IMG/VR virus record: IMGVR_UViG_3300032018_000009
Location: 1 to 42,877 of that record
Direction: 5' to 3' (one strand)
Length of the DNA stretch: 42,877 nucleotides
Source: a virus
Positions 5,946 to 42,877 of this stretch are shown here, in pieces. The notes under the pieces are model-generated. The model saw only the letters and a list, made by a program, of their open reading frames with translations. It was not told the DNA's origin and searched no databases. The position numbers and the translations under genes are program-made. The stretch's first letter is position 1. Every line of letters begins with the position of its first letter.

Positions 5946-7341
5946 AGGGAAAAAAGTTGTTAACATCCAAGCAGATAAAAAATATCAAGGGCTTGGTAGT
6001 TTATTTTATGTTGAGAGCTCTATTCTTGGGCTTGCAACCAATTTAGAGGATAGTAAGCGTGAGCCGTTTCATGCGATGGAACTTTATGCTTTGCCTGATT
6101 TGCGGTATGGATGGATAAGTATCCCAAAAGAGACAATAATCTCTGTTCCTTCAATAAATCATATCCAATTAGTTTCTCCAATTACTTATTTAGTTGGTTG
6201 GGAAGGTTCAAGTTTGTATGTTTATGATTTAGAACAGCGAGAAGTTCCTTTCTATACTAATTTAGATGCTAATATTAGTTCAGCAATTTTTCTTAATGAT
6301 GCAACTATAGCTTGTATATGCCCTCTTTCACAAAATCCTTTAAAAATCATTTTTTACAAAAGCGGTGTTGGAAGATCTTATAATAAAAAAGGCGATTATT
6401 TAGCTTTTTTTAAAGGGCGTCTTTTTATAGCAGAAGGTAAAATTTTGCATTTTACAAGTGCAAGCATTACAGATCCAAGTTTTAGTGGTGACCCCTTTGC
6501 TTCAGAAAATGGTGGTGGATATTTAATTTTAAATTATCCTCAAGTTTCAAAGGTTTGTTATCTTTTACCCTATGAGGATATGCTATACATTTTTACTGAT
6601 GGGGGGCTCTATGTTTTAACTGTTTCTTTAGCGAGTAATTCTCCTTCTACTTTTTATATTATTGATGCTGGTATTAATTATAATTTTTCTAAGGCAAAAG
6701 TTTTGCAAATAGGAGATACTTTAGCAGTTATTACAAACGTAGGCATGTTTTTCTTATCTGGAATGAGTTTAGAAAGATTTGATTGGCCAGTTGCTGATCA
6801 ATTGAATAAGTTAGATTATATGAAAGCAGGCGGTGGGTATTTCCAAGGGCAAAGATTAATTTTAGTTCCTTATATAACTGACAAAAAAACTTTAGTTTAC
6901 AGCATGGAACATAGTCAATTTTTTTATTTGCCATATAAAACAGCTAATTGCATTTTTTCTCCAAGTGGATTGACTTATGATTTTTCTCAAACAACCTTAA
7001 GAATATTGTTTGATAACACAAATTATTATTATCCATTCCATTTTGCTTCTGTGCTCCATGATTACAATCAGCCTCGTTTTAAATATATTAAAGAAGTTTG
7101 GGTAAATGGTAAAGGTGATTTTCAAGTTGATTTTTTATATGATTATTATGGGATTTCTACAAAATATAGTCAAATAGGTGCGAATTTATCGTATTATCGA
7201 AAAAGTTTTGGTGCAAAAGGGTATAAAATAGGTTTGCAAATTACATCTTCTACAGAATGCGAACCTTTTGCTTATGTAAATAAAATCCGTTTAACTTTGC
7301 ATCTATTAGGAAGCGTGAATTATCTCTATTATAGAGGTTAA
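5938..7341 (+). CDS. Tail nozzle / tail tubular protein B-like
   Basis: A 467-aa, beta-rich protein full of Tyr, Phe and Gly. Repeated strand motifs such as LFIAEGKILHFTSASI, YEDMLYIFTDGGLYVLTV and TLAVITNVGMFFLSG are typical of the propeller-like nozzle proteins (T7 gp12 / P22 gp10 group). It directly follows the adaptor gene with an 8-base overlap, the same order as in those phages. It would form the tube end through which DNA leaves. Shorter than T7 gp12 (about 790 aa), but P22 gp10 is of similar length. Assigned by motif style and synteny. Confidence 0.65.
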   Translation: MSKGKKVVNIQADKKYQGLGSLFYVESSILGLATNLEDSKREPFHAMELYALPDLRYGWISIPKETIISVPSINHIQLVSPITYLVGWEGSSLYVYDLEQREVPFYTNLDANISSAIFLNDATIACICPLSQNPLKIIFYKSGVGRSYNKKGDYLAFFKGRLFIAEGKILHFTSASITDPSFSGDPFASENGGGYLILNYPQVSKVCYLLPYEDMLYIFTDGGLYVLTVSLASNSPSTFYIIDAGINYNFSKAKVLQIGDTLAVITNVGMFFLSGMSLERFDWPVADQLNKLDYMKAGGGYFQGQRLILVPYITDKKTLVYSMEHSQFFYLPYKTANCIFSPSGLTYDFSQTTLRILFDNTNYYYPFHFASVLHDYNQPRFKYIKEVWVNGKGDFQVDFLYDYYGISTKYSQIGANLSYYRKSFGAKGYKIGLQITSSTECEPFAYVNKIRLTLHLLGSVNYLYYRG

Positions 7342-25060: not shown

Positions 25061-25567
25061 TTAATAAACTTTGCTGAAAACAAAATCAAAATCTAAAGTT
25101 TTTAGCTCCTCTTCTGAGAGCACCTTGCCCTCTGGCAATCTTGTTCTGAGGACAAAGTGGAGGGCGCTGTCGCCCTCTCTCATTTTGACTGCTATTCTGT
25201 TATAGGGTATCTCTACCCCTAATAGCTCTGTGAGCACTTTTGCAGTTGCCTCGTGCCCAATTGCCGATACAAAAGAATTTCTTCTGACAAGCCCCTTAGC
25301 GGTTTTCAAGTCAACTTTTAAAATCTCAACCAAATACCGATCCTTCTCTTGCAAATCAACAGGTATAACAAGTGTGTTTAAAATGTAAAGCATACCCGCA
25401 CCTCCTTTTTTTTGATTTTTTTGCTGAGTTATTAACTCCCAGATGCCCTCTTTTAGTAGATCCGACTTCGTTCTCCCGAACATTCGGGCAATCTTGCAAA
25501 GTTTCTGATATAGCTTTGGGTTAACTGCCGTTCCTATTCGCTCTTCTACTGTCTTCATTTTTGGCAT
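25061..25567 (-). CDS. RHH domain fused in frame to AcrIII-1 (DUF1874) viral ring nuclease
   Basis: 168 aa. Residues 1-50 look like a ribbon-helix-helix DNA-binding domain (ERIGTAVNPKLYQKLCKIAR, then MFGRTKSDLLKEGIWELI). From M59 (base 25393) the protein matches the DUF1874/AcrIII-1 family: MLYILNTLVIPVD, FVSAIGHEATAKVLTELLGV, NRIAVKM, RTRLPEGKVLSEEEL. Numbered from M59, His47 lies in GHEATA with R66, R85 and E88 in the positions conserved in SIRV1 gp29. Known family members degrade cyclic tetra-adenylate and so switch off type III CRISPR effectors. An ideal ribosome site (AAGGAGGTG) sits in the linker codons, so a separate 110-aa nuclease is probably also made. Confidence 0.88.
   Translation of the reverse strand: MPKMKTVEERIGTAVNPKLYQKLCKIARMFGRTKSDLLKEGIWELITQQKNQKKGGAGMLYILNTLVIPVDLQEKDRYLVEILKVDLKTAKGLVRRNSFVSAIGHEATAKVLTELLGVEIPYNRIAVKMREGDSALHFVLRTRLPEGKVLSEEELKTLDFDFVFSKVY
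25398..25422 (-). promoter_or_regulatory. Internal ribosome site and A-runs at the RHH/AcrIII-1 junction
   Basis: On the minus strand a run of seven A (25416-25422), TC, and a run of eight A (25406-25413) lead into AAGGAGGTG (25399-25407), 5 bases before ATG at 25393. These bases encode the linker QKNQKKGGAG in the long frame. The A runs are possible slippage or assembly-error sites. Confidence 0.8.
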
Positions 25568-25712
25568 TATTCCCCTCCAAATACTTTTTGCAAAGAAGGT
25601 TTATAGCCCGCTCAAACAACTCTGCATAACTTATTCCTTCTTCTCTACAATAATTATTTATCCGCTCAAGAAACCATCTTGACACTCTAAAAACGATAAT
25701 CCTCTCAGCCAT
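25521..25712 (-). CDS. Ribbon-helix-helix DNA-binding protein
   Basis: A 63-aa protein. AERIIVFRVSRWFLERINNY followed by CREEGISYAELFERAINLL has the beta strand - helix - helix pattern of Arc/CopG/RHH repressors, and a basic tail follows. The last 47 bases overlap the start of the next RHH-AcrIII-1 gene in another frame. It is the first coding gene behind tRNA-Arg. RHH proteins act as dimers, often autoregulating. The palindrome CTTGAC-N11-GTCAAG in the early promoters and the periodic arrays at 33.5 kb are candidate targets (inference). Confidence 0.72.
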   Translation of the reverse strand: MAERIIVFRVSRWFLERINNYCREEGISYAELFERAINLLCKKYLEGNNAKNEDSRRANRNGS

Positions 25713-25731
25713 TCTGTCCTCCCCATAAATA

Positions 25732-25805
25732 AGCCCCTGGGAGGATTTGAACCCCCACCCTTGGGATTAGAAGTCCCATGCTCTGTCCTATTGAGCTACA
25801 GGGGC
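25732..25805 (-). tRNA. tRNA-Arg (anticodon UCU)
   Basis: A complete cloverleaf of 74 nt on the minus strand: acceptor GCCCCTG/CAGGGGC, D stem GCTC/GAGC, anticodon stem TGGGA/TCCCA with loop CTTCTAA (anticodon TCT), variable AGGGT, T stem GGGGG/CCTCC with loop TTCAAAT, discriminator U. No CCA is encoded. It would read AGA, a frequent arginine codon in these genes. Confidence 0.95.
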
Positions 25806-25818
25806 TTTTATCCGTAGT

Positions 25819-27883: not shown

Positions 27884-28255
27884 CTAAGCTTTCAATGGTC
27901 TTACAAAAATGAAAACATTGCAACCGCTTAGTATCTCATCAGACCGCTCATCCCTATAAACAACCTCTTCAATGCCATGTTTTCTTAAAACAGCCTCTAT
28001 GCCTCTTCTCGTTTTCTCATCCTCTTCCTTTAACCATTCTAAATATTCATACTCTTTTGCCTCGTCTCCTTTTAATCCCTCCTTTTGGAGTTTCAACTCT
28101 AAATCTCTATGCCTGCTCGCTATATCGAAAGTGTAGCGAAGGAGATCTGTATAAATGTCTATTGCCTTATCAAACCTACTTCTGGATATCTTTACTCGGA
28201 ATGTTGCATTTGGATAATACATCTTCAAAATTTTTTTTATTTCTCTACCGTTCAC
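27884..28255 (-). CDS. Unknown early protein, weak LPD29-like N-terminus
   Basis: It starts with GTG at 28255 behind ACAGAGGAGGTGGCGCC. 123 aa. The opening REIKKILKMYYPNATFRVKI followed by a short basic turn and AIDIYTDLL resembles the pattern of the LPD29 domain found in phage polyvalent proteins (helix, FP.v.F.Vr, strand). A charged helix about 50-90 and a C-terminal strand (GCNVFIFVRPL) complete it. The family link is tentative. Confidence 0.58.
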   Translation of the reverse strand: MNGREIKKILKMYYPNATFRVKISRSRFDKAIDIYTDLLRYTFDIASRHRDLELKLQKEGLKGDEAKEYEYLEWLKEEDEKTRRGIEAVLRKHGIEEVVYRDERSDEILSGCNVFIFVRPLKA

Positions 28256-28277
28256 GGCGCCACCTCCTCTGTTTTTT

Positions 28278-28592
28278 TTACTCTGTGTAAATCTCTACCG
28301 TTAGCTTATATGCTTTGTCATTAACAATCTCATACTTTTCAAAAACGTAAATCAAATCTTCGTCATCATAACAGACATCTAACCGCCAGCCTCGAAATTT
28401 ACACTTATCTACCTCTTGTGCTTTTAATCGGACTATAAGCTTACCTGAACCATAATCCTTTGTCGCATACAAATATCCTTCTACGAAAGAAAACTCCTCT
28501 GGCTCTCGTTCAAATGCTTTCATAAAAACTTCTCTGAGCTCTTTTATTCTTCGCTCTTTCATTTTCTCAAAATCATCAAAGACTGTTGTCAT
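28278..28592 (-). CDS. Unknown early protein, 104 aa
   Basis: An N-terminal charged helix (DFEKMKERRIKELREVFMKA) followed by a beta-rich part (FVEGYLYATKDYGSGKLIVR, then DLIYVFEKYEIVNDKAYKL). Ribosome site AAAGGAGGTGGAGCT. The layout is plausible for a small single-domain binding protein. No family is recognised. Confidence 0.6.
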   Translation of the reverse strand: MTTVFDDFEKMKERRIKELREVFMKAFEREPEEFSFVEGYLYATKDYGSGKLIVRLKAQEVDKCKFRGWRLDVCYDDEDLIYVFEKYEIVNDKAYKLTVEIYTE

Positions 28593-28735
28593 AGCTCCAC
28601 CTCCTTTGTCTTTTTACTCTTTCGTTATTTTTTCGTTCTTTCGTCTTTTCGCTCCTTCAGCACGGATCTCTACACTGCATCACTCTCCACCTCCTCCCTC
28701 AGCTCCTGCACCGCTGAGGCACAGGGGCATTGAGT
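28593..28735 (-). other. 143-bp gap with hairpin and octamer-spaced TTCG motifs
   Basis: A perfect 7-bp hairpin CCTCAGC/GCTGAGG lies at 28697-28719, and GGAGGAGGTGGAGAGTG follows it on the minus strand, serving only an 7-codon frame. On the + strand TTCG occurs at 28632, 28640 and 28648, spaced 8 bp, like the array at 33811-33898. No real gene is seen. It probably holds a decayed gene and a leader. Confidence 0.45.
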
Positions 28736-29143
28736 TTATTCTACATACGCTCGCTCTGCCTCTTCTACTATTTCAAAAACGCCCGCTGTATTCTCCCCCC
28801 TCAATTCTCGCATTTTCGCTATGCAATACTCATCCAACTTGTCCTCTGGGAACGCTTCCGCATATTTGAAGATCTTCAATGTAGTTTCTGGGTCGATCTC
28901 AAGAACTCTTCTCGCTCGATTTAACAATGCTTTACTCGGATATATCCAGAAGGGCAATATAACCAATAACGCTTTTTCTATTGGATCATTGGGGAAAATC
29001 CTCAATCTCGGATGCCTACTTCGCAAAGCATATACTCCATCCTCTACTAATACTACTGCTCGATTGCCCCTCGGACAGTGGAGTAAATAGGTAAATGGAT
29101 AATCAAACAATTCATACAGTATTCCCCTCTGCACTACACCCAT
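28736..29143 (-). CDS. Unknown early protein, 135 aa
   Basis: Mixed alpha/beta: GVVQRGILYELFDYPFTYLL, CPRGNRAVVLVEDGVYAL, then helical (LLNRARRVLEIDPETTLKIF) with an acidic C-terminus. The ATG at 29143 lies inside the last codons of the peptidase gene (10-base overlap), whose KEVEP codons supply the ribosome site GGAGGTGGAGCC. Translation is thus coupled. No family is recognised. Confidence 0.62.
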   Translation of the reverse strand: MGVVQRGILYELFDYPFTYLLHCPRGNRAVVLVEDGVYALRSRHPRLRIFPNDPIEKALLVILPFWIYPSKALLNRARRVLEIDPETTLKIFKYAEAFPEDKLDEYCIAKMRELRGENTAGVFEIVEEAERAYVE

Positions 29144-30090
29144 GGCTCCACCTCCTTCATTTTTTGTCTAATGCACTTTGGATGCTCTGGATCTGGACTA
29201 TCTTCCAATTGCCAACAATAATAGCCCACGACCCTGTCCCAATCTAACGCTCCGCAATTCCAACACTCAATTGGGCAATCCTGTTCCTCATTCACCTTTG
29301 TCTCATCATACCACCAGAGGTAACTGCTTTTTTCTACTTTGTTAACTCTTCTACTCTTGCTCTTGCCCTTGCCACTGCTCCGATATGAATAATACGTCCA
29401 CAGGGGTAACTCTGGTAATTCATACCTCTTGTCCCCAAGCTCACTGATTAACTTGGGTATTGTCTTAATTGTGTATTCTAACGCTGGCAAATAAATATAT
29501 TCCGATGTTTTGCTGTGCTCATTAAAGTAACCTGCACTCAAATTCGTTGATGCGACTTTGAAATGCGACCCTAATATACTGATATCACTGAAACTCCCCC
29601 TCTCAATCTGAAAATACTTCTCAACCACTTTGACAAAATCGACTGCGACAATTTCTTCATCATTATAAAACACCGCTTGCCTCATGCCTCTGCGGTCTAT
29701 TTCAATAAAGTAAGGGGTCTCTTGCAACTGCGGACAATCGCAAGCTTCAATCGCCCCCGCTCCGCCACGCTCTTCTAAATCACAAAATAACGCATTGACT
29801 TCTAATTCATTGAACAACTTCATCACCGCATAAACACCCGCTCGGTCATCTCCAGCAATCCCCATTGGAGACCAGAGATATTCTTCGTTGTATAAAATCG
29901 GTCTCTTGCTCCAATTTTTCTCTTCATATACATGGTCAATGTGGGCTACCAAACAAGGTAGCCCTTCGCCCCTATACCATAGCACATAATGCTTTCCACA
30001 TACAGCATAAGGGCGCTTCTTCAACTCTGCAAATAACCTTGCTGTCGGCAATCTCAGAATGCGGATTAATTCATTAACATCAATCTTCAT
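29134..30090 (-). CDS. M28/M20-like zinc metallopeptidase
   Basis: A 318-aa protein with the metal-binding and catalytic order of co-catalytic di-zinc peptidases: H50-x-D52 in VAHIDHV, bridging D81/D82 in GIAGDDRAGVYAV, catalytic E106/E107 in DLEERGGAGA, D132 in IEIDRRG, and a late H192 in NLSAGYFNEHSKTSEY. A zinc-finger-like end follows (CPIECWNCGALDW and a further pair of Cys). It would cleave a peptide or amino-acid bond in the cytoplasm; no signal peptide is seen. Substrate unknown. Such enzymes are uncommon in phages. It is the second main gene of the first early operon. Confidence 0.8.
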   Translation of the reverse strand: MKIDVNELIRILRLPTARLFAELKKRPYAVCGKHYVLWYRGEGLPCLVAHIDHVYEEKNWSKRPILYNEEYLWSPMGIAGDDRAGVYAVMKLFNELEVNALFCDLEERGGAGAIEACDCPQLQETPYFIEIDRRGMRQAVFYNDEEIVAVDFVKVVEKYFQIERGSFSDISILGSHFKVASTNLSAGYFNEHSKTSEYIYLPALEYTIKTIPKLISELGDKRYELPELPLWTYYSYRSSGKGKSKSRRVNKVEKSSYLWWYDETKVNEEQDCPIECWNCGALDWDRVVGYYCWQLEDSPDPEHPKCIRQKMKEVEPWV

Positions 30091-30100
30091 TCTCCACCTC

Positions 30101-31648
30101 CTATTCAGATAATATTTCTCTTAAAACTTGCTCTGCTGGATCTACTACATTTTCATTCTTTGCGAACAATGACGCATGATCCTTACCTTCAAAAGCACTC
30201 TCAATAAACGCCTTCTCTCTGTCATAATAGCAAAATGAACAAATCCCTAATCTAACAATGTTCCTCAATTCTGAGCTTACCAAATAATCTCTAATTAGAT
30301 ACCTCACCTCTCTTCCACACTGCTCGCACTGATAAACCCTCATATGCCTCTCTGCACACCTATCACAAATGTATTCCTCATGCCTCCAACTCCGATACAA
30401 AATCTGATATTCCTGCACCGTTACTTCATCCTCTTCTTCTTTGTCAAAATAGAAAAATTCTCCACATACAGAACACCTCGCCCCTACTTCCAATGCACAA
30501 TCCTCACATAATACTCTATTATCAGGCGTAAATACTGCATAATCTCTACGATAAACCCTCTCACACCTTTCACAGAAGAAATATCCATCCTCATAACACC
30601 TATCACATACAAAACCTACACCATCAATAAATGTCGCATCATCTCTACTAATCAATTCCCCACAATCAGCACACTCAACCATATTTTCTAAGTCATAAAG
30701 ACAATCTGAACATACAATCAATCCGCTTACATCATCACTGGCCGGAGAGTAGTAAATACGCTCATCATATTTTTTCAAATCCTTTACTCTCTCTTCAGCC
30801 CCACACCATAAACAAGTGCTCCACAAATTCTCTAATGCATCTAAAACTTGATCCGAATTCTCATAATGCGCCGGCTCGTATATTACGATACCGTCGCCAT
30901 TGAGATATATTGGCATATCTGGAGTTCTCATTCTAAACTTCACATTTTCAGAAAGATCAAATAATTTCCTCAACAATCTCACAATCGTATACTTGTATCT
31001 TTCATCTTTTAGTTCCACACCTTTACTATAAAAATTCGTCACATATATAGCGTAGGGAGACACTTTATACACCCAGCATCTCCCTACACCAACCTTTGAG
31101 CCATTCTGATAGTGAAATACTACCAGCTTGGCTCTGTCATACTTGCGATCTTCCTTAATCAGCCAGAGGACATTCCCCTCATTACATCCTCCGTCTCTAA
31201 AACATGAATTAGTATCCCCTAAGTCATAGGGGATACCGTAATACTCTCTCTTTCTAAATGCTTCCGCTGGAAACAATCCAGCGAATAATACACCTTCATC
31301 TCCATACATCTTTCTAACAACATTGAGAATTCGAGATAAACTATCATTTGACAATTGTAAATTGCGTTCCTTGCAAATGTTTCGTATGACCTTCTTGAAT
31401 AAGTTCGTCACTGGTTCATTCTTTCCATTTCTAAAATACCTCAAATCCCATTTCCGCTCCTTTGCTTCTTTTTCCACTATCTCATAGAACTCTAAAAACA
31501 ATAAATCAAGGTTCTCACTCCCCACTTCTTCTCTCAAACTCATTAATACCACATCCGTCAACTCCCTCACTTCACAGAGGAGCTCTGCTTTAATCTCCTC
31601 TGCCTCTACTTTCAATGCTTTACTAAATAACTCCTCCCGCTTTACCAT
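30101..31648 (-). CDS. Large zinc-ribbon early protein (ten CxxC motifs)
   Basis: A 515-aa protein. Residues 1-130 are helical and charged; about 130-280 are mixed alpha/beta, including a LGDTNSCFRDGGCNEGNVLW segment. The last 230 residues contain ten CxxC pairs (CLWC, CSDC, CADC, CDRC, CERC, CEDC, CSVC, CDRC, CEQC, CSFC), enough for five zinc ribbons or LIM-like modules. It is the first long gene of the early operon and follows a 19-codon leader frame. Multi-ribbon proteins usually bind nucleic acid or protein partners; host takeover is possible but not shown. Family not recognised. Confidence 0.72.
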   Translation of the reverse strand: MVKREELFSKALKVEAEEIKAELLCEVRELTDVVLMSLREEVGSENLDLLFLEFYEIVEKEAKERKWDLRYFRNGKNEPVTNLFKKVIRNICKERNLQLSNDSLSRILNVVRKMYGDEGVLFAGLFPAEAFRKREYYGIPYDLGDTNSCFRDGGCNEGNVLWLIKEDRKYDRAKLVVFHYQNGSKVGVGRCWVYKVSPYAIYVTNFYSKGVELKDERYKYTIVRLLRKLFDLSENVKFRMRTPDMPIYLNGDGIVIYEPAHYENSDQVLDALENLWSTCLWCGAEERVKDLKKYDERIYYSPASDDVSGLIVCSDCLYDLENMVECADCGELISRDDATFIDGVGFVCDRCYEDGYFFCERCERVYRRDYAVFTPDNRVLCEDCALEVGARCSVCGEFFYFDKEEEDEVTVQEYQILYRSWRHEEYICDRCAERHMRVYQCEQCGREVRYLIRDYLVSSELRNIVRLGICSFCYYDREKAFIESAFEGKDHASLFAKNENVVDPAEQVLREILSE

Positions 31649-31651
31649 AGC

Positions 31652-31711
31652 TCACACCTCCTCATTGTGGGTTTTCTCTCTTTTAACTTTTTCTCTCTCT
31701 TTACTCTCCAT
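31652..31711 (-). CDS. 19-codon leader peptide frame
   Basis: ATG at 31711 has its own site (AGAAGAGGTGGAGCA). The product is MESKEREKVKREKTHNEEV and its stop codon is 3 bases before the ATG of the 515-aa gene. The GAGGAGGTG codons at its end are that gene's ribosome site. It may couple translation of the long gene. It could also be chance. Confidence 0.4.
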   Translation of the reverse strand: MESKEREKVKREKTHNEEV

Positions 31712-31744
31712 TGCTCCACCTCTTCTTCTCTTTTTCTACTGTCT

Positions 31745-31773
31745 ATCTTAGTTAAACAAGCTAAAAAGGTCAA
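31745..31773 (-). promoter_or_regulatory. Early promoter upstream of the 515-aa gene
   Basis: On the minus strand TTGACC (31768-31773), 17 bases, TAAGAT (31745-31750). It starts the first early operon. It has the same TAAGAT -10 box as the promoter at 32749. Confidence 0.7.
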
Positions 31774-31970
31774 GCTTGATTTTAGCTTGTTTTAGCTTGT
31801 TTAGGCTTGGCTTGGCTTGGTTTTCTTGTTTTTTTCTTGTTTTTTCTTAAAATTTTTTGGCTTGGCTTGGCTTGAAAAAATTGGCTTTAAATTGGCTTAT
31901 ATTGGCTTGAATTTGAAAAGGTAGGGTTTGAATACTACCTTGACCTAAAAAGGGCATCGTAGGGCATTTT
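31774..31970. repeat. Short-unit AT-rich repeats upstream of the early operon
   Basis: Runs of TTAGCTTGTT, TTGGC (three or four in tandem, twice), TTTTTCTTG and ATTGGCTT fill 31774-31911. AGGGCAT-type repeats with 10-20-base spacing follow from about 31937 (AGGGCATCGTAGGGCATTTT). Gene-free. It could unwind easily or bind several protein copies; no coding signal is seen. Confidence 0.65.
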
Positions 31971-32002
31971 AGAGCATTTAGAAGGGCATTTTAAGAGACC
32001 TT

Positions 32003-32021
32003 AGAGGGCAAAAAGCCCCCT
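32003..32021 (-). terminator. Terminator-like hairpin behind the 222-aa gene
   Basis: AGGGGGC and GCCCTCT pair (one G-U) around TTTTT on the minus strand, about 30 bases after the stop of the 32052 gene. No downstream U run. Confidence 0.4.
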
Positions 32022-32051
32022 AAAGCCCCATTGATACACTATGCCACTTAA

Positions 32052-32720
32052 TTAATCCTCAAAACCACCATCAACCTCTTCTATCTCTTCCTCTAAAGTC
32101 TGCTCCACTTCCCGAACTAATATCGAATTACCCGCCACAGTCACTCCCTCAATCCTCTTCTCAGCCTTTAATATACTTTTCAATTGAAACAAAACCTCTG
32201 ACAGCCTCTTCTCTATCATAACATAATAACCACTCACCATGCTCCTATTCGGCTTGGTTATCCTTACCGCTATACAATACTGCCTCTTACCCTCTCTCTC
32301 CCAATACCTCAATATCCCTAAATCACCTAATAACTTCAATACCCCTTGCTTACTATACCCTAAATCAAATGCCCTATCTAAAAACTCCTGCATCGTCCCC
32401 CTCTTCAATAATATTAATCCCCTCTTCTTATCAAAACCCTCCATCTCCCCATTGTCATAACTAACACTCCACTCCTTCTTCCTCTCTAATACCCACTGCC
32501 AAAATACTTTTAACAACTCTAACTCCTCTCTACTCAAATCCCCTACCTCTAACCGCACTTCCCCTACCTTCCCCTCAACCCTCTTCAACTTCCTCCCTAA
32601 TAACCGCTCCAATATCAACCGCATGTCCTCTAACTCCCTCCTCATCTCCCGCACCTCTACCACTAAACTATCCACTAACCCCACTAATCCCTCTACCAAA
32701 CGCTCAATCTTACTCTCCAT
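32052..32720 (-). CDS. Coiled-coil protein with winged-helix-like domain; possible origin/array-binding protein
   Basis: A 222-aa protein. Residues 1-45 form a coiled coil (VEGLVGLVDSLVVEVREMRR). About 70-150 contain a helix-rich domain ending in a winged-helix-like part (MQEFLDRAFDLGYSKQGVLK, LLGDLGILRYWER then GKRQYCIAVRI). The C-terminus is acidic. It is the first leftward gene next to the repeat-filled control region and has its own promoter (32749-32777). Iteron-binding initiators and partition proteins are commonly encoded beside their sites, so this is the best candidate for such a role. No named family is recognised. Confidence 0.62.
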   Translation of the reverse strand: MESKIERLVEGLVGLVDSLVVEVREMRRELEDMRLILERLLGRKLKRVEGKVGEVRLEVGDLSREELELLKVFWQWVLERKKEWSVSYDNGEMEGFDKKRGLILLKRGTMQEFLDRAFDLGYSKQGVLKLLGDLGILRYWEREGKRQYCIAVRITKPNRSMVSGYYVMIEKRLSEVLFQLKSILKAEKRIEGVTVAGNSILVREVEQTLEEEIEEVDGGFED

Positions 32721-32748
32721 CTCTGCACCTCCTCTCTGTTTTTCTTTA

Positions 32749-32777
32749 ATCTTAACTCAACCTCTGTTCTTTGTCAA
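32749..32777 (-). promoter_or_regulatory. Promoter of the 222-aa gene
   Basis: On the minus strand TTGACA (32772-32777), 17 bases, TAAGAT (32749-32754). The -35 box lies inside the first iteron-like repeat (GTCAATAGTATTACAGCAT on the other strand), so a repeat-binding protein would repress it. Confidence 0.75.
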
Positions 32778-33270
32778 TAGTATTACAGCATGACATCATC
32801 ATCCTTAGCCCTTGTCAATAGTATTACAGCATTACAAATATGACAACCTGCCCTTTATATGCCCGCAATGCCCCTCTGTCGATACTATGACAGTATTACA
32901 AGGATTACAGTCAATAGTATTACAGCATTACAAGCATGACAACTTACCCTCTGCTATCTTTCCCTCTCTCCCTGTCATACTATTACAGCATGACAAGTAT
33001 TACAAACTAACCCCCTATATATCCCTGATGTCCCCCTGTAATGCTATGACAGCATTACAAGTATTACAATATGCCCATTCCTGTACTTCTCAGATGCTCT
33101 CTCCGTTTCGTTCTATTTTGCTGATGGTGTTCTTTTTTCTGTTTTGTAATGCTGTCATACTTTCTCTGAAATACTAATAAATTCTACTTTTCCTATGATA
33201 TGTAATACTGTTACTAAACTATTATCATACTGTAATCTGTGTGTCAATACTTTACAGCATTACAGTCATA
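32774..33270. repeat. Iteron-like repeats built from TATTACAG/CATTACAA octamers
   Basis: TCAATAGTATTACAGCAT is present at 32774 and recurs at about 32816 and 32911. Variants with ATKACA boxes follow (GTCGATACTATGACAGTATT, GTCATACTATTACAGCATGA, GTAATGCTATGACAGCATTA) and two more, one inverted, lie near 33145 and 33242. Within a unit the ATTACA/ATGACA boxes are 8 or 9 bp apart. At least seven units in about 500 bp, spaced by C/T-rich filler. Frames through it look like chance. Confidence 0.8.
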
Positions 33271-33283
33271 CTTTTCCCTTTTG

Positions 33284-33495
33284 CGTGGAACATTTGCTTC
33301 TAAGTCAGTATTCATGCGGTCTCCGAGACATGCTTCCGTGGAACATTCTTTTAATCCACACTAAACAAATCAGTAATTACCCTCTGTGTCTTGTCCCCTC
33401 AGCCCTTCAGACAATCTGTATTGCTCCAATCTTCCCTTTTTCCGTGGGACACTCTGCGTGGAACACACCATCTGTGGAACACTTTCCATGGAACA
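33284..33495 (+). repeat. Six direct repeats of NGTGGAACA
   Basis: CGTGGAACA at 33284, 33337 and 33457; CGTGGGACA at 33443; TGTGGAACA at 33473; CATGGAACA at 33487. The last four are 14-16 bp apart. The motif equals one half-site of the bacterial parS palindrome TGTTCCACGTGGAACA, but no full palindrome occurs. Confidence 0.6.
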
Positions 33496-33529
33496 CTTCT
33501 CCGTTTGCTCGCTGTGGGTTCTGGACGAT

Positions 33530-33785
33530 ACTCTATCAATCAGGCATTCAGGCACTTAGCCGTTCGGTCACTCGGTCTCTCGGGCACTCCGCACTTCGGA
33601 ACTCAGGCTCTTCGGAACTCAAGCACTTCGGCGATCGACCACTCGGCCGTTCAGACAATCAGACACTCGACCACTCGACCACTCGATCACTCGATCACTC
33701 GATCACTCGATCACTCGATCACTCGGATAATCAGGCATTCAGGCACTTAAGCATTTGACCGCTTGACCACTTGACCACTCAGAGC
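33530..33785 (+). repeat. Octamer array, consensus CTCGRNCA, strict 8-bp period (about 32 units)
   Basis: Five perfect CTCGATCA units run from 33682 to 33721, flanked by CTCGACCA (33666, 33674). Degenerate units in the same register extend left (ATCAGACA, TTCAGACA, CTCGGCCG, ATCGACCA, back to about 33530) and right (CTCGGATA, ATCAGGCA, TTCAGGCA, CTTGACCA twice, to 33785). The + strand frame through it gives an 8-residue repeat peptide and has no ribosome site. Confidence 0.88.
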
Positions 33786-33810
33786 TCAAGCAATCTGTAT
33801 TTAACCACTC

Positions 33811-33898
33811 TGCATTCGTTTATTCGCTTTTTCGTTTATTCGCATAATCGCTTATTCGTTCTTTCGAGCAGTCGGCGACTTGGCTACTGAGAAACTGA
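33811..33898 (+). repeat. Second octamer array, TTCG every 8 bp (11 units)
   Basis: TTCG at 33815, 33823, 33831, 33839, 33855 and 33863; ATCG at 33847; GTCG at 33871; CTTG at 33879; CTGA at 33887 and 33895. All are exactly 8 bp apart, but the phase differs from the CTCGRNCA array. The filler between boxes is A/T-rich. Confidence 0.82.
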
Positions 33899-33902
33899 GC
33901 TT

Positions 33903-33997
33903 GTGAAAAATTTCACGAGCCCTTGACAAGGGCATGTGAAAAAATTCACGTGAAAAAATTCACAAAGTCCTTGTCAAGAGATTGTGAAAAATTTCAC
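33903..33997. promoter_or_regulatory. Dyad-symmetric cluster of four GTGAAA..TTTCAC boxes (operator or origin)
   Basis: 14-bp boxes GTGAAAAATTTCAC (33903-33916 and 33984-33997) flank two abutting GTGAAAAAATTCAC boxes (33936-33949 and 33950-33963). CCTTGACAAGG and CCTTGTCAAG lie between the outer and inner boxes on either side, so the whole 95 bp is an imperfect palindrome centred at the inner junction. The outer boxes with flanks read TGTGA-N6-TCACR, like CRP/FNR-family sites. Confidence 0.78.
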
Positions 33998-34147
33998 ATA
34001 GACTTGACTTTTGGCAAGTTTAGGCATAGGCAAGGTAAGCTTGTTTTTTTGGTTTAAAAATTTTAGCTAAGATAAGAAAAAAAGAGAAAAGAGAAAAAAA
34101 GGCAAGATTAAAAAGAAAGACTTTTTAAATTTGGCTTTTTAGAGGAC

Positions 34148-34175
34148 TTGACAAGTTAAAAATTATGCTTATATT
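34148..34175 (+). promoter_or_regulatory. Promoter of the winged-helix gene
   Basis: TTGACA (34148-34153), 16 bases, TATATT (34170-34175), about 65 bases before the ATG at 34240. It overlaps a CTTGACAAG element like those in the box cluster. Confidence 0.65.
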
Positions 34176-34239
34176 GATGCTTAAGATGCAAGGGCAAGGG
34201 CAAGTTAAAAAAACAAAAAACAAAAAAGGGGGGATCGGT

Positions 34240-34527
34240 ATGGATAGGATTAAAGAACAAATTAAAGAATTTATAGTCAAAAAAGTTAGAGAGAATGTAT
34301 CCGAACAAAGACCTTTTTTCTTTGTTAGATGGTCAGGATTATTTGAATTATGTCAGAATTACAATTTAGATTTATTGAAGTTAATTGATGAATTACATTC
34401 CGAAGGTAGAATTAGAAAAGCCCTTATTAAGGGCAAATTAGCTTTAACAACGGTAGAATTGGCTAAAAAAGCTAATAAAAAAGCTAAGAATATTCTTGAA
34501 GAATTTGCTCAATTTGCTCAAAGATAA
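34240..34527 (+). CDS. Small winged-helix-like regulator
   Basis: ATG at 34240 follows GGGGGGATCGGT; an upstream in-frame ATG at 34165 overlaps the promoter and is rejected. The 95-aa product is basic: a leading helix (DRIKEQIKEFIVKKVRENVS), FFFVRWSGLFELCQNYN, then LLKLIDELHSEGRIRKALIK and GKLALTTVEL, a helix - helix - two-strand wing pattern seen in small DNA-binding proteins. It is a one-gene unit with its own promoter and strong terminator between the early and late modules, as expected of a switch regulator. No named family is claimed. Confidence 0.68.
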   Translation: MDRIKEQIKEFIVKKVRENVSEQRPFFFVRWSGLFELCQNYNLDLLKLIDELHSEGRIRKALIKGKLALTTVELAKKANKKAKNILEEFAQFAQR

Positions 34528-34552
34528 TAATTAATAGCCCTTGCCCTTGCCG

Positions 34553-34585
34553 AAGGGGATCGGCATCTACCGATCCCCTTTTTTT
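34553..34585 (+). terminator. Strong rho-independent terminator
   Basis: AAGGGGATCGG (34553-34563) pairs perfectly with CCGATCCCCTT (34570-34580) around CATCTA, followed by T's to 34585. The right arm ACCGATCCCC is also exactly complementary to GGGGATCGGT just before the ATG of the same gene. Confidence 0.92.
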
Positions 34586-34666
34586 ATGTTTTAATCCAAT
34601 ATTGAAATTGACTTTCAAAATCAATTGGGGACTTGGTGTTTAGAATTATTCCAATTGCAAAGTTAA

Positions 34667-34735
34667 AATTGGTTTAATCCGTATGTTGGAATTGTTTTAA
34701 TTCGTAATTTGGAATTGGTGTAAATCGCATTGTTG
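34667..34735 (+). repeat. Three degenerate 23-bp tandem repeats before the late promoter
   Basis: Units at 34667, 34690 and 34713, each built on AATTGGTTTAAT-C/T-CG followed by TTGG or TTG. A GC-richer stretch follows, then the promoter at 34809. It probably binds a regulator of the rightward genes. No gene lies in 34586-34863. Confidence 0.65.
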
Positions 34736-34808
34736 CAGTGGACGCAATGGGGCAGTAGGCGTTCGTGCGCGTGGGCGCTCAAGCTTGCACCCCCCAAAAC
34801 AAAAAATC

Positions 34809-34836
34809 TTGACTTTTCTTTACCGTGTGCTATGCT
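34809..34836 (+). promoter_or_regulatory. Rightward promoter with extended -10
   Basis: TTGACT (34809-34814), 16 bases, TATGCT (34831-34836) preceded by TGC, an extended -10 element. It lies 28 bases before the ATG at 34864, whose ribosome site is CAGGAGG. The best visible promoter for the methyltransferase/portal side. Confidence 0.65.
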
Positions 34837-34863
34837 ATCAGTATCTCTTTTCAGGAGGTCTTT

Positions 34864-35319
34864 ATGGTAGGGTCAAATGAGTTTCCTCCAATTCAACCTT
34901 CTATAGCACCGATAGCTGGCGTATTAGTGGATCAGAGTGCGGGTAGTTGGGTAGATTTGGTGGTTATTTTGGTATTGGTGGTTGTTTTGGTTGTTGGGTT
35001 GTTATTAATTAAAGATTTTTATAGTTTAAAGAGATTGAGAGCTTTTAGGGATTTAAAGAAGTTTTGTAAGGAGAATGGAGCAAGTGAGGCTATTTGCATT
35101 ATTAGTTTAGGGTATTTAGTTTTGTTGAATGAGAAAGGTGAGGTAGTTAAGGGAGTGTATAGGGATGAGTTAGAGTTGGGATTTTATGAATTTTTGGAGA
35201 GTGTAAGGTATTTAGGTAGGGAGCTTGGGATTGGTGTTAGGTGGTTTAACACTGCGATGGATGTGGATAGTGGGTTAGTGGATAAAATTTGTAAGTATGA
35301 GTGGAGTGGAGTGAGGTAG
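34864..35319 (+). CDS. Membrane-anchored protein of unknown function
   Basis: ATG 34864 is chosen for the CAGGAGGTCTTT site upstream. 151 aa: a Pro/Ser-rich start, one strong membrane segment about residues 28-48 (VDLVVILVLVVVLVVGLLLI), then a cytoplasmic alpha/beta domain (SLKRLRAFRDLKKFCKENGA, then AICIISLGYLVLLNEKGEVV). It ends inside the methyltransferase start region. First gene behind the rightward promoter. The coding strand is G/T-rich with very few C, like its neighbours to 38.6 kb. Confidence 0.65.
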   Translation: MVGSNEFPPIQPSIAPIAGVLVDQSAGSWVDLVVILVLVVVLVVGLLLIKDFYSLKRLRAFRDLKKFCKENGASEAICIISLGYLVLLNEKGEVVKGVYRDELELGFYEFLESVRYLGRELGIGVRWFNTAMDVDSGLVDKICKYEWSGVR

Positions 35320-36017
35320 TGTTTGAGTATTTTAGGACGGAGTTAGGTATTTTATATCGAGGTGATGCGATAGAAGTATTGAAGAGTTTACCTGATGAGA
35401 GTGTTGATTTAGTGGTAGCGGATCCTCCGTATAATTCGGGGATAGAGTGGGACAGTAAGGATGACGAATGGCAGTTTCAGTGGTTAGAGGAAGTGAAGCG
35501 GGTGATGAGGGAGGGGGCAAGTCTGTATGTTTTCTTTGCGCCGATGAACATGTATGGGGTTGAGGGTTGGATAAGGGGTAATTTGACTTTGAAGAATGTG
35601 ATGGTTTGGTGGCATCCGAATTTATATGGGTCTAGGATGAGTTATGGGTCGGACAGGTGGAAGAGCACTTGGGATGTGGTATTTTATGCGGTGAAGGGGA
35701 AGCGGGCGAAGCATGGTAAGAAGGTAGCTGAGGAGGGGTATAAGCTTAATTCGAATGGTGGTAGGTTTGATGTGATGGTTTATTCTCAGCCGAGACCGCT
35801 TTTACACAAGGCGCAGAAGCCGTTGGAGTTAGTGATGAAGTTGGTGTATTGTTCGAGTAATGAGGGGGATGTAGTGCTTGATCCGTTTTTAGGGAGTGGG
35901 ACGACGGCGGTGGCTTGTGAGAAATTGGGGAGGAAGTGGATTGGGATAGAGATAGAGGAAGAGTTTTGTGAGGTTGCGAAAAAGAGGTTGAGGGATATTA
36001 GTGGTAAATTATTGTAA
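35301..36017 (+). CDS. DNA methyltransferase, N4-cytosine/N6-adenine type (beta class order)
   Basis: 238 aa from GTG at 35301; a GTG at 35319 is an alternative start. The catalytic motif DPPY (D41-Y44) in VVADPPYNSGIEW lies near the N-terminus. The S-adenosylmethionine-binding motif DPFLGSGTTAVACEKLGRKW starts at about D194. DPPY before FxGxG is the order of beta-class enzymes (PF01555 type). No restriction enzyme is nearby, so it probably protects phage DNA from host restriction or marks it for regulation. Recognition site cannot be read from sequence. Confidence 0.9.
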   Translation: MEWSEVVFEYFRTELGILYRGDAIEVLKSLPDESVDLVVADPPYNSGIEWDSKDDEWQFQWLEEVKRVMREGASLYVFFAPMNMYGVEGWIRGNLTLKNVMVWWHPNLYGSRMSYGSDRWKSTWDVVFYAVKGKRAKHGKKVAEEGYKLNSNGGRFDVMVYSQPRPLLHKAQKPLELVMKLVYCSSNEGDVVLDPFLGSGTTAVACEKLGRKWIGIEIEEEFCEVAKKRLRDISGKLL

Positions 36018-42237: not shown

Positions 42238-42877
42238 ATGAAATTTTTGCGCAAAGTTTCACCGATTGCTACAGGCGCCATTACGAATACTGTTGGGGGG
42301 GATTTAACAGTTCAAGGGAATATAAATATTCAAGCAGGTAATAATGCTTCTATTGGAACGGTTGATAACTATAATTTGAGTTTGAGAACGAATAACGCTG
42401 ATAGAATTTTTATCACAAACACTGGCAACGTTGGCATCGGGACGGCAAGTCCATTGGAAAAATTAGATGTTATTGGTAATATTCAGAATATTCTAAGTGC
42501 CGATGCTCCACCAACTAGAATTGGAGCAGTAACTTTAAATGAAGGTGAAGACTATGGTACTTCAATAGCTGTTTCTGGAAGGTATGCTTATATTGTAACA
42601 GAGACATTCCCAGCCAAGGTAGTAGTAGTTGATATTTCAAATCCAGCTTCACCAACTAGAATTGGAGCAGTAACTTTAAATGAAGGTGAAGATAGTGGTG
42701 CTTCAATAGCTGTTTCTGGGAGGTATGCTTATATTGTAACAATGACGGTTCCAGCCAAGGTAGTAGTAGTTGATATTTCAAATCCAGCTTCACCAACTAG
42801 AATTGGAGCAGTAACTTTAAATGAAGGTGAAGATAGTGGTGCTTCAATAGCTGTTTCTGGGAGGTATGCTTATATTG
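42238..42877 (+). CDS. LVIVD-repeat tail fibre, N-terminal part (continues at base 3)
   Basis: ATG 42238 behind AAGGGAGGTGTGATGTT. The first 85 residues are a fibre stem (FLRKVSPIATGAITNTVGG, then RIFITNTGNVGIGTASPLEKL). The frame then enters half a repeat starting at PPTRIGAV and two full 47-residue LVIVD repeats and runs off the end. Joining through the 30-base overlap gives about 660 aa: half + seven full + half repeats, flanked on both sides by GNVGIGT..P..KL.V.G motifs. The two halves complement each other, as in propellers closed by pairing of first and last strands. Confidence 0.88.
   Translation, partial: MKFLRKVSPIATGAITNTVGGDLTVQGNINIQAGNNASIGTVDNYNLSLRTNNADRIFITNTGNVGIGTASPLEKLDVIGNIQNILSADAPPTRIGAVTLNEGEDYGTSIAVSGRYAYIVTETFPAKVVVVDISNPASPTRIGAVTLNEGEDSGASIAVSGRYAYIVTMTVPAKVVVVDISNPASPTRIGAVTLNEGEDSGASIAVSGRYAYI
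42510..42877 (+). repeat. Tandem 141-bp LVIVD coding repeats (right part of array)
   Basis: Half a unit from about 42510, one full unit beginning with the ETFPAK codons near 42600, and a second (MTVPAK type) reaching the window end. Bases 42848-42877 equal bases 1-30, so the array is continuous with the left end. The true copy number cannot be known from this assembly. Confidence 0.93.

Follow-up and report, generated by a model that had tools for sequence, protein, structure and literature searches.

A tract of 8-bp direct repeats in the putative origin region of a Hydrogenobaculum phage 1-like virus

In a 42,877-base record from IMG/VR (the whole of it is called the window), which comes from a hot-spring bacterial virus, we directly observed that a run of TTCG octamers near 33.8 kb shares its 8-bp period and the core of its words with a longer tract lying between two diverging gene blocks, that this run keeps its place in one diverged relative (contig L012), and that ribbon-helix-helix (RHH)-like genes are present in the virus. 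We give about even weight to the reading that the array, itself real, is a functional iteron-like or operator-like part of the origin region of an Aquificae virus. The start of replication in Aquificae viruses has so far been guessed from base composition and gene layout, and the conserved octamers, with an A-rich stretch next to them, offer a concrete site and four candidate proteins.

Period, extent and words of the octamer tract

The stretch 33811-33898 had a lag-8 identity of 0.65 compared with 0.27 in dinucleotide shuffles (z = 7.9); across all lags of 3 to 30, none of 2000 shuffles was as high, and lags 7 and 9 were flat. A preliminary description of this DNA had reported eleven TTCG boxes here at exact 8-bp spacing, and the period analysis placed that spacing well beyond random expectation. 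The eleven positions indeed fall at exact 8-bp steps (33815, 33823, ... 33895), but TTCG occupies only six of them; three hold the near-matches ATCG, GTCG and CTTG, and the final two have decayed to CTGA. Because these last two boxes are off-pattern, the array proper comprises about nine boxes. The octamer features are as follows.

33812-33883, plus strand: TTCG array in the strict sense, nine octamers with consensus YATTCGYT in exact 8-bp register; the array keeps its place in L012 (7351-7406)
33541-33790, plus strand: left part of the period-8 tract, degenerate CAYTYR octamers; remnants in L012 at 7281-7305
28617-28659, plus strand: a further site of TTCG octamers (the second site), within the leader of the gene at 28278-28592 (minus strand)

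The boxes had been described as a second array, with a different core and in another phase than the CTCG array beside it. The difference in phase was confirmed (mod 8 = 7 for TTCG versus 2 for CTCG), but the separateness was not, as the TTCG boxes form the right end of a single near-continuous period-8 tract of ~340 bp (33541-33883), interrupted by phase slips and, around 33785-33811, by a short gap, that gives the strongest lag-8 signal in the window. Nor are the cores different: the words read NCAYTYRR in the left part and TYATTCGN in the right part, and since RNCAYTYR and YTYATTCG have YAYTCG in common, they are not unrelated. Judged by their letters, the TTCG and CTCG arrays are variants of one word.

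The left part includes a perfect block of CACTCGAT at 33664-33725 (7 copies in the window), and a 16-bp higher-order duplication is present within the tract. The register is held, with few slips, though adjacent units differ at ~35-45% of positions. Searching the window for TTCGNNNNTTCGNNNNTTCG with up to two mismatches gave 13 matches where 1.7 were expected, and those with 0-1 mismatch were confined to the array or to 28632-28659. T stands at octamer position 5 in 40/40 units from both parts of the tract and L012, a count that leaves out 33592-33638, where the phase is ambiguous. In the left part, changes at positions 6 and 8 were all transitions, as were most at position 7. Changes between neighbouring units were unevenly spread over the eight positions and avoided position 5 (pooled p ~0.0007); this test takes the units as independent though duplicated units share ancestry, and the phase was picked by eye, so the position bias is a lead and not proof. 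The tract contains at least four contiguous repeats of 7-8 bp, as RHH-bound arrays do, and it also has the identical tandem units of a simple-sequence repeat, with a copy number that differs between relatives (CACTCGAT in the window, CATTCGCT in L012).

Two other roles were rejected. Both folded stretches (33541-33900 on the plus strand and 33808-33902 on the minus strand) folded worse than most shuffles; hairpins are therefore not the point of the tract, and a structured-DNA role was dropped. A coding repeat was set aside as well, the frames 33195-33758 and 33391-33750 having no counterpart of at least 80 aa in L012. No known RNA family was found in 28200-35000.

Genome setting and conservation

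The first and last 171 bases of the record are the same sequence, and on this ground the genome is probably a circle of ~42.7 kb; the overlap, however, falls inside a 141-bp repeat and might have arisen in assembly. Copies of the 141-bp repeat occupy 1-776 and 42505-42877. Hydrogenobaculum phage 1 (HP1, KP282676) encodes a primase 93% and a terminase 98.5% identical to those of the window. Three more contigs, the phage 1 record among them, align collinearly with the window in long DNA matches, and replication and structural genes are homologous with their order kept. Its gene content makes the window a relative of Hydrogenobaculum phage 1, and the record looks circular. The HP1 record (19.4 kb) does not include the array region and all three collinear contigs end before it, and L012 alone among the relatives spans it, so that conservation of the array refers to one relative, a point that counts against a functional reading. 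A phage DNA collection searched with the array region gave no match, and a genome-contig search with the primase found no relative. No virus of Aquificae had been isolated as of a 2020 study (PMC7689252).

In L012 the TTCG part lies in the same place as three to four CATTCGCT units in exact register, and the CTCG part is nearly gone, leaving only traces. The two viruses have diverged considerably here: the neighbouring 95-aa proteins share 57% identity, and a large part of the intergenic DNA fails to align. The second TTCG site also occurs with 8-bp spacing in L002, L003 and L004, and with ~9-bp spacing in L012. In the window as in its relatives, TTCG triplets with 0-1 mismatch were confined to two addresses, 33.8 kb and 28.6 kb. 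Directly preceding the second site, and a gene that differs between the viruses, is a seven-codon frame, (M/V)(Q/R)CRDPC-stop, with a ribosome-binding-like site and silent codon changes; it was seen in five viruses (window 28657-28680, minus strand; L002 3382; L003 575; L004 156; L012 5170-5193, minus strand). AGCTTG repeats with 10-bp spacing fill another intergenic stretch (window 31739-31930, L002 116-258, L012 5678-5818).

The period-8 tract sits in a 1.5 kb intergenic gap. On one side of it, replication and early genes form a block on the minus strand; on the other, a plus-strand block includes the structural genes. GC skew changes sign at this region and is strongest on both flanks, and the same holds in L012. 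The putative bidirectional origins of the Aquificae viruses TOSV and 'Pyrovirus' have been described with diverging gene blocks, ~1 kb of intergenic DNA, a GC-skew switch and repetitive elements (PMC7689252). The window shows this layout (intergenic position, diverging gene blocks, skew switch) together with repeats and a related host phylum; in contrast, the published repeats form stem-loops (PMC7689252), whereas the window tract is less structured than its shuffles. GC skew also follows gene orientation and is therefore weak evidence for an origin. On layout, the intergenic region is likely a bidirectional replication origin. Its other elements are listed here.

32782-33068, plus strand: RYATKACA boxes, five triads with internal spacing of 8 then 9 bp, plus one pair
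33441-33504, plus strand: TGGAACA boxes at ~14-bp spacing; similar TCCGTGGAACATT elements in L012
33903-33997, plus strand: GTGAAAAAWTTCAC palindromes, part of a 48-bp repeat that also holds CTTGACAAG; L012 keeps one copy
34022-34140, plus strand: A-rich low-GC stretch adjoining the arrays, 79% A+T in 100 bp from 34041
34148-34175, plus strand: conserved promoter-like site TTGACA-16-TATATT

The A-rich stretch is a possible unwinding element. No exact DnaA box was found in the region, and matches with a single mismatch were near chance. The RYATKACA triads recur every 32 or ~64 bp, distances close to three and six turns of the helix, and are set apart from the octamers by their 8 + 9 spacing; of the three arrays with different words and nearly the same spacing that had been described, two are thus one tract with a shared core and only the ATKACA boxes remain distinct. 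Elements like CCYTATATANCCC lie between the triads, and L012 has similar TATATA elements.

Candidate binding proteins

Four proteins are candidates for binding the array.

25524-25712, minus strand: RHH protein 1 (RHH1, 63 aa), a candidate to bind the array; its Pfam RHH_1 match (E=0.016) is below cut-off
25403-25558, minus strand: RHH protein 2 (RHH2), candidate array binder; Pfam RHH_3 E=0.004, below cut-off
34240-34527, plus strand: conserved protein of 95 aa (57% identity with L012), modelled as helical with a possible HTH; no known family
32052-32720, minus strand: divergent protein of 222 aa (38% identity with L012); no known family

The structural model of RHH1 has an extended N-terminus followed by two helices and matched CopG, Arc, TacA, AtaR and MatP chains, with modest scores (Foldseek E ~0.7, Z up to 6.2). 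RHH2 runs for ~51 aa, after which its frame reads through into a B116-like gene. The two RHH-like genes are adjacent and in tandem in the window, L002, L004 and L012. Going by the model, the virus likely encodes an RHH-fold protein; PDB profile searches with the RHH alignments returned no RHH chain. The RHH promoter has no TTCG array, the only match being one with two mismatches at 25467-25486, inside the RHH2 gene. This promoter and the sub-threshold Pfam calls argue against RHH proteins as readers of the octamers, as does L003, which has neither RHH gene at the equivalent place but does have a long TTCG array at the 28.6 kb address; the L003 contig is incomplete, so this last observation is suggestive only.

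Protein searches with the 95-aa and 222-aa proteins matched the L012 contig only, and Pfam, PHROGs and PDB profiles gave nothing useful for either; Foldseek with the 95-aa model gave no match. No ParA-type ATPase was found among 28 window reading frames scanned against Pfam.

Adjoining the RHH pair is a tRNA-Arg (TCT) in the window (25731-25806), L002 (6580) and L004 (1772). L003 has this tRNA (2186) with no RHH genes between it and the B116-like gene, and L012 has a tRNA-Phe nearby instead (1113). The frame that continues from the RHH2 gene, at 25061-25567, encodes a bacterial-virus homologue of STIV B116 (Pfam E=3e-27).

Readings of the tract

As the tract lies in a probable origin region and is found in the same place in a relative, a DNA-binding protein probably uses it as a landing strip, though octamer repeats of this sort also arise commonly by slippage in bacteria. 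We infer the origin, the octamer binding and the binder as follows. The array would be the conserved, origin-proximal end of the ~340-bp tract of 8-bp direct repeats, within the putative bidirectional origin and divergent control region of a circular HP1-like virus. Each octamer, with its core YTCG, may serve as one low-affinity site, and a small DNA-binding protein, most likely either RHH protein or either of the uncharacterised flanking proteins, would occupy adjacent octamers cooperatively and coat the tract beside the palindromes and the A-rich stretch. Such coating could start or time replication and/or control the divergent promoters. Slippage-type duplication of 8- and 16-bp units would make the tract grow and alter its words, and the bound protein would maintain the 8-bp register and the core.

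Known arrays offer partial parallels. RHH proteins bind the contiguous 7-bp heptads (WATCACW) of pSM19035 parS (PMC9499535) and the 8-bp met boxes (PMC3228920), and ParG coats the parH array of TP228, in which tetramer boxes have AT-rich spacers (PMC7308502). The window tract is like these arrays in its contiguous, degenerate units of 7-8 bp, its several copies and the RHH-like genes of the virus; it differs in having ~40 units where they have 2-10, no ParA was found among the 28 frames scanned, the RHH genes are not adjacent to the array, and binding is putative here. Plasmid and phage iterons are likewise direct repeats by an A-rich stretch, between divergent genes and at a skew switch. Typical iterons are ~17-22 bp long and spaced near whole helical turns, whereas the window units are 8 bp, and the flanking proteins match no initiator family.

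The strongest alternative, which we consider possible but doubtful, is a neutral or nearly neutral octamer microsatellite, in which slippage makes and renews units, drift alters the words and no protein reads them. Perfect blocks of 7-8 identical units stand next to decayed ones, 16-bp units occur, and the CTCG half is almost absent from L012, all of which slippage would explain. Scans of viral and genome collections for TTCG and CAYTYG octamers gave, among the matches listed, tracts in unrelated genomes, including adjoining blocks of different words under one 8-bp period in unrelated viral and bacterial loci (L018 11200-11420, L064 150-300, L070 5850-6110, L153 6640-6830 and L215 7120-7260). 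These loci were chosen by bait word and so show that such tracts occur, not how often. Two Bacteroidota MAGs (L163/G006 and L153/G004) have dozens of CAYTYG matches dispersed across many contigs; in G006 a reversed control pattern was as common as the CAYTYG octamer arrays, the word-frequency comparison covering three genomes. In 1.39 Mb of flanking DNA, units of 7 bp (32 arrays) and 8 bp (8 arrays) exceeded those of 9-15 bp (0-4 per size), and heptameric repeats are over-represented in bacteria, for which slippage has been proposed as the explanation (PMC4692102). Octamer tracts with changing words are not peculiar to this virus, being found in unrelated bacteria and viruses, and slippage alone can make them; shared spacing is by itself no proof of a protein scaffold.

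Like the prokaryotic 7-8 bp simple-sequence repeats, the tract has perfect tandem blocks, an intergenic site and changing words, but it differs from them in an invariant core position and in a part conserved in position and register between diverged viruses. Four observations tell against slippage without a reader: the TTCG half holds its place and register in L012, position 5 is spared from substitutions in old, decayed units, register slips are few despite strong unit divergence, and nearly all near-exact TTCG arrays, in the window as in its relatives, are found at two places. We regard a protein lattice as better supported than slippage alone. The preliminary description had traced the shared spacing to one scaffold geometry or one generating mechanism, and each drew some support: the scaffold, with binding putative, from the register, position 5, the conservation in L012 and the RHH-like genes, though not in its version with three unrelated words; and the mechanism from the perfect blocks, the 16-bp duplication and the similar tracts in unrelated genomes.

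Two narrower readings are both improbable, and to much the same degree. One is a lattice origin with 8-bp geometry in which a duplicated small RHH family would read two to three diverging words, slippage supplying the words for paralogous binders. In the other, the octamers are operators only: a repressor bound to them would control the 95-aa gene's promoter together with the divergent early promoter, and they would have no role in replication. The second TTCG site in another gene's leader (window, L002, L003 and L004) and the conserved promoter at 34148 fit such an operator, but the array is upstream of that promoter by ~260 bp, an interval that holds palindromes and the A-rich stretch, and the second site might work through the leader RNA and not as DNA. 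Least likely of all is an RHH-coated partition centromere of the parS/parH type that would segregate a plasmid-like prophage: contiguous 8-bp repeats, two RHH-like genes and a window word containing ACTC, which we take to be the parH box word, recall one, but the ParA-type ATPase is missing from the 28 scanned frames, the RHH genes lie 8 kb off and outside any par operon, the gene content (terminase and portal) is virus-like, and the repeats do not overlap the RHH gene promoter.

Two minor observations concern GATC and methylation genes. The perfect octamer block of the window contains GATC every 8 bp, and methyltransferases differ at the equivalent place in the two viruses, being of the N6_N4_Mtase family in the window (35301-36017) and, by eye, Dam-like in L012 (8252-9163).
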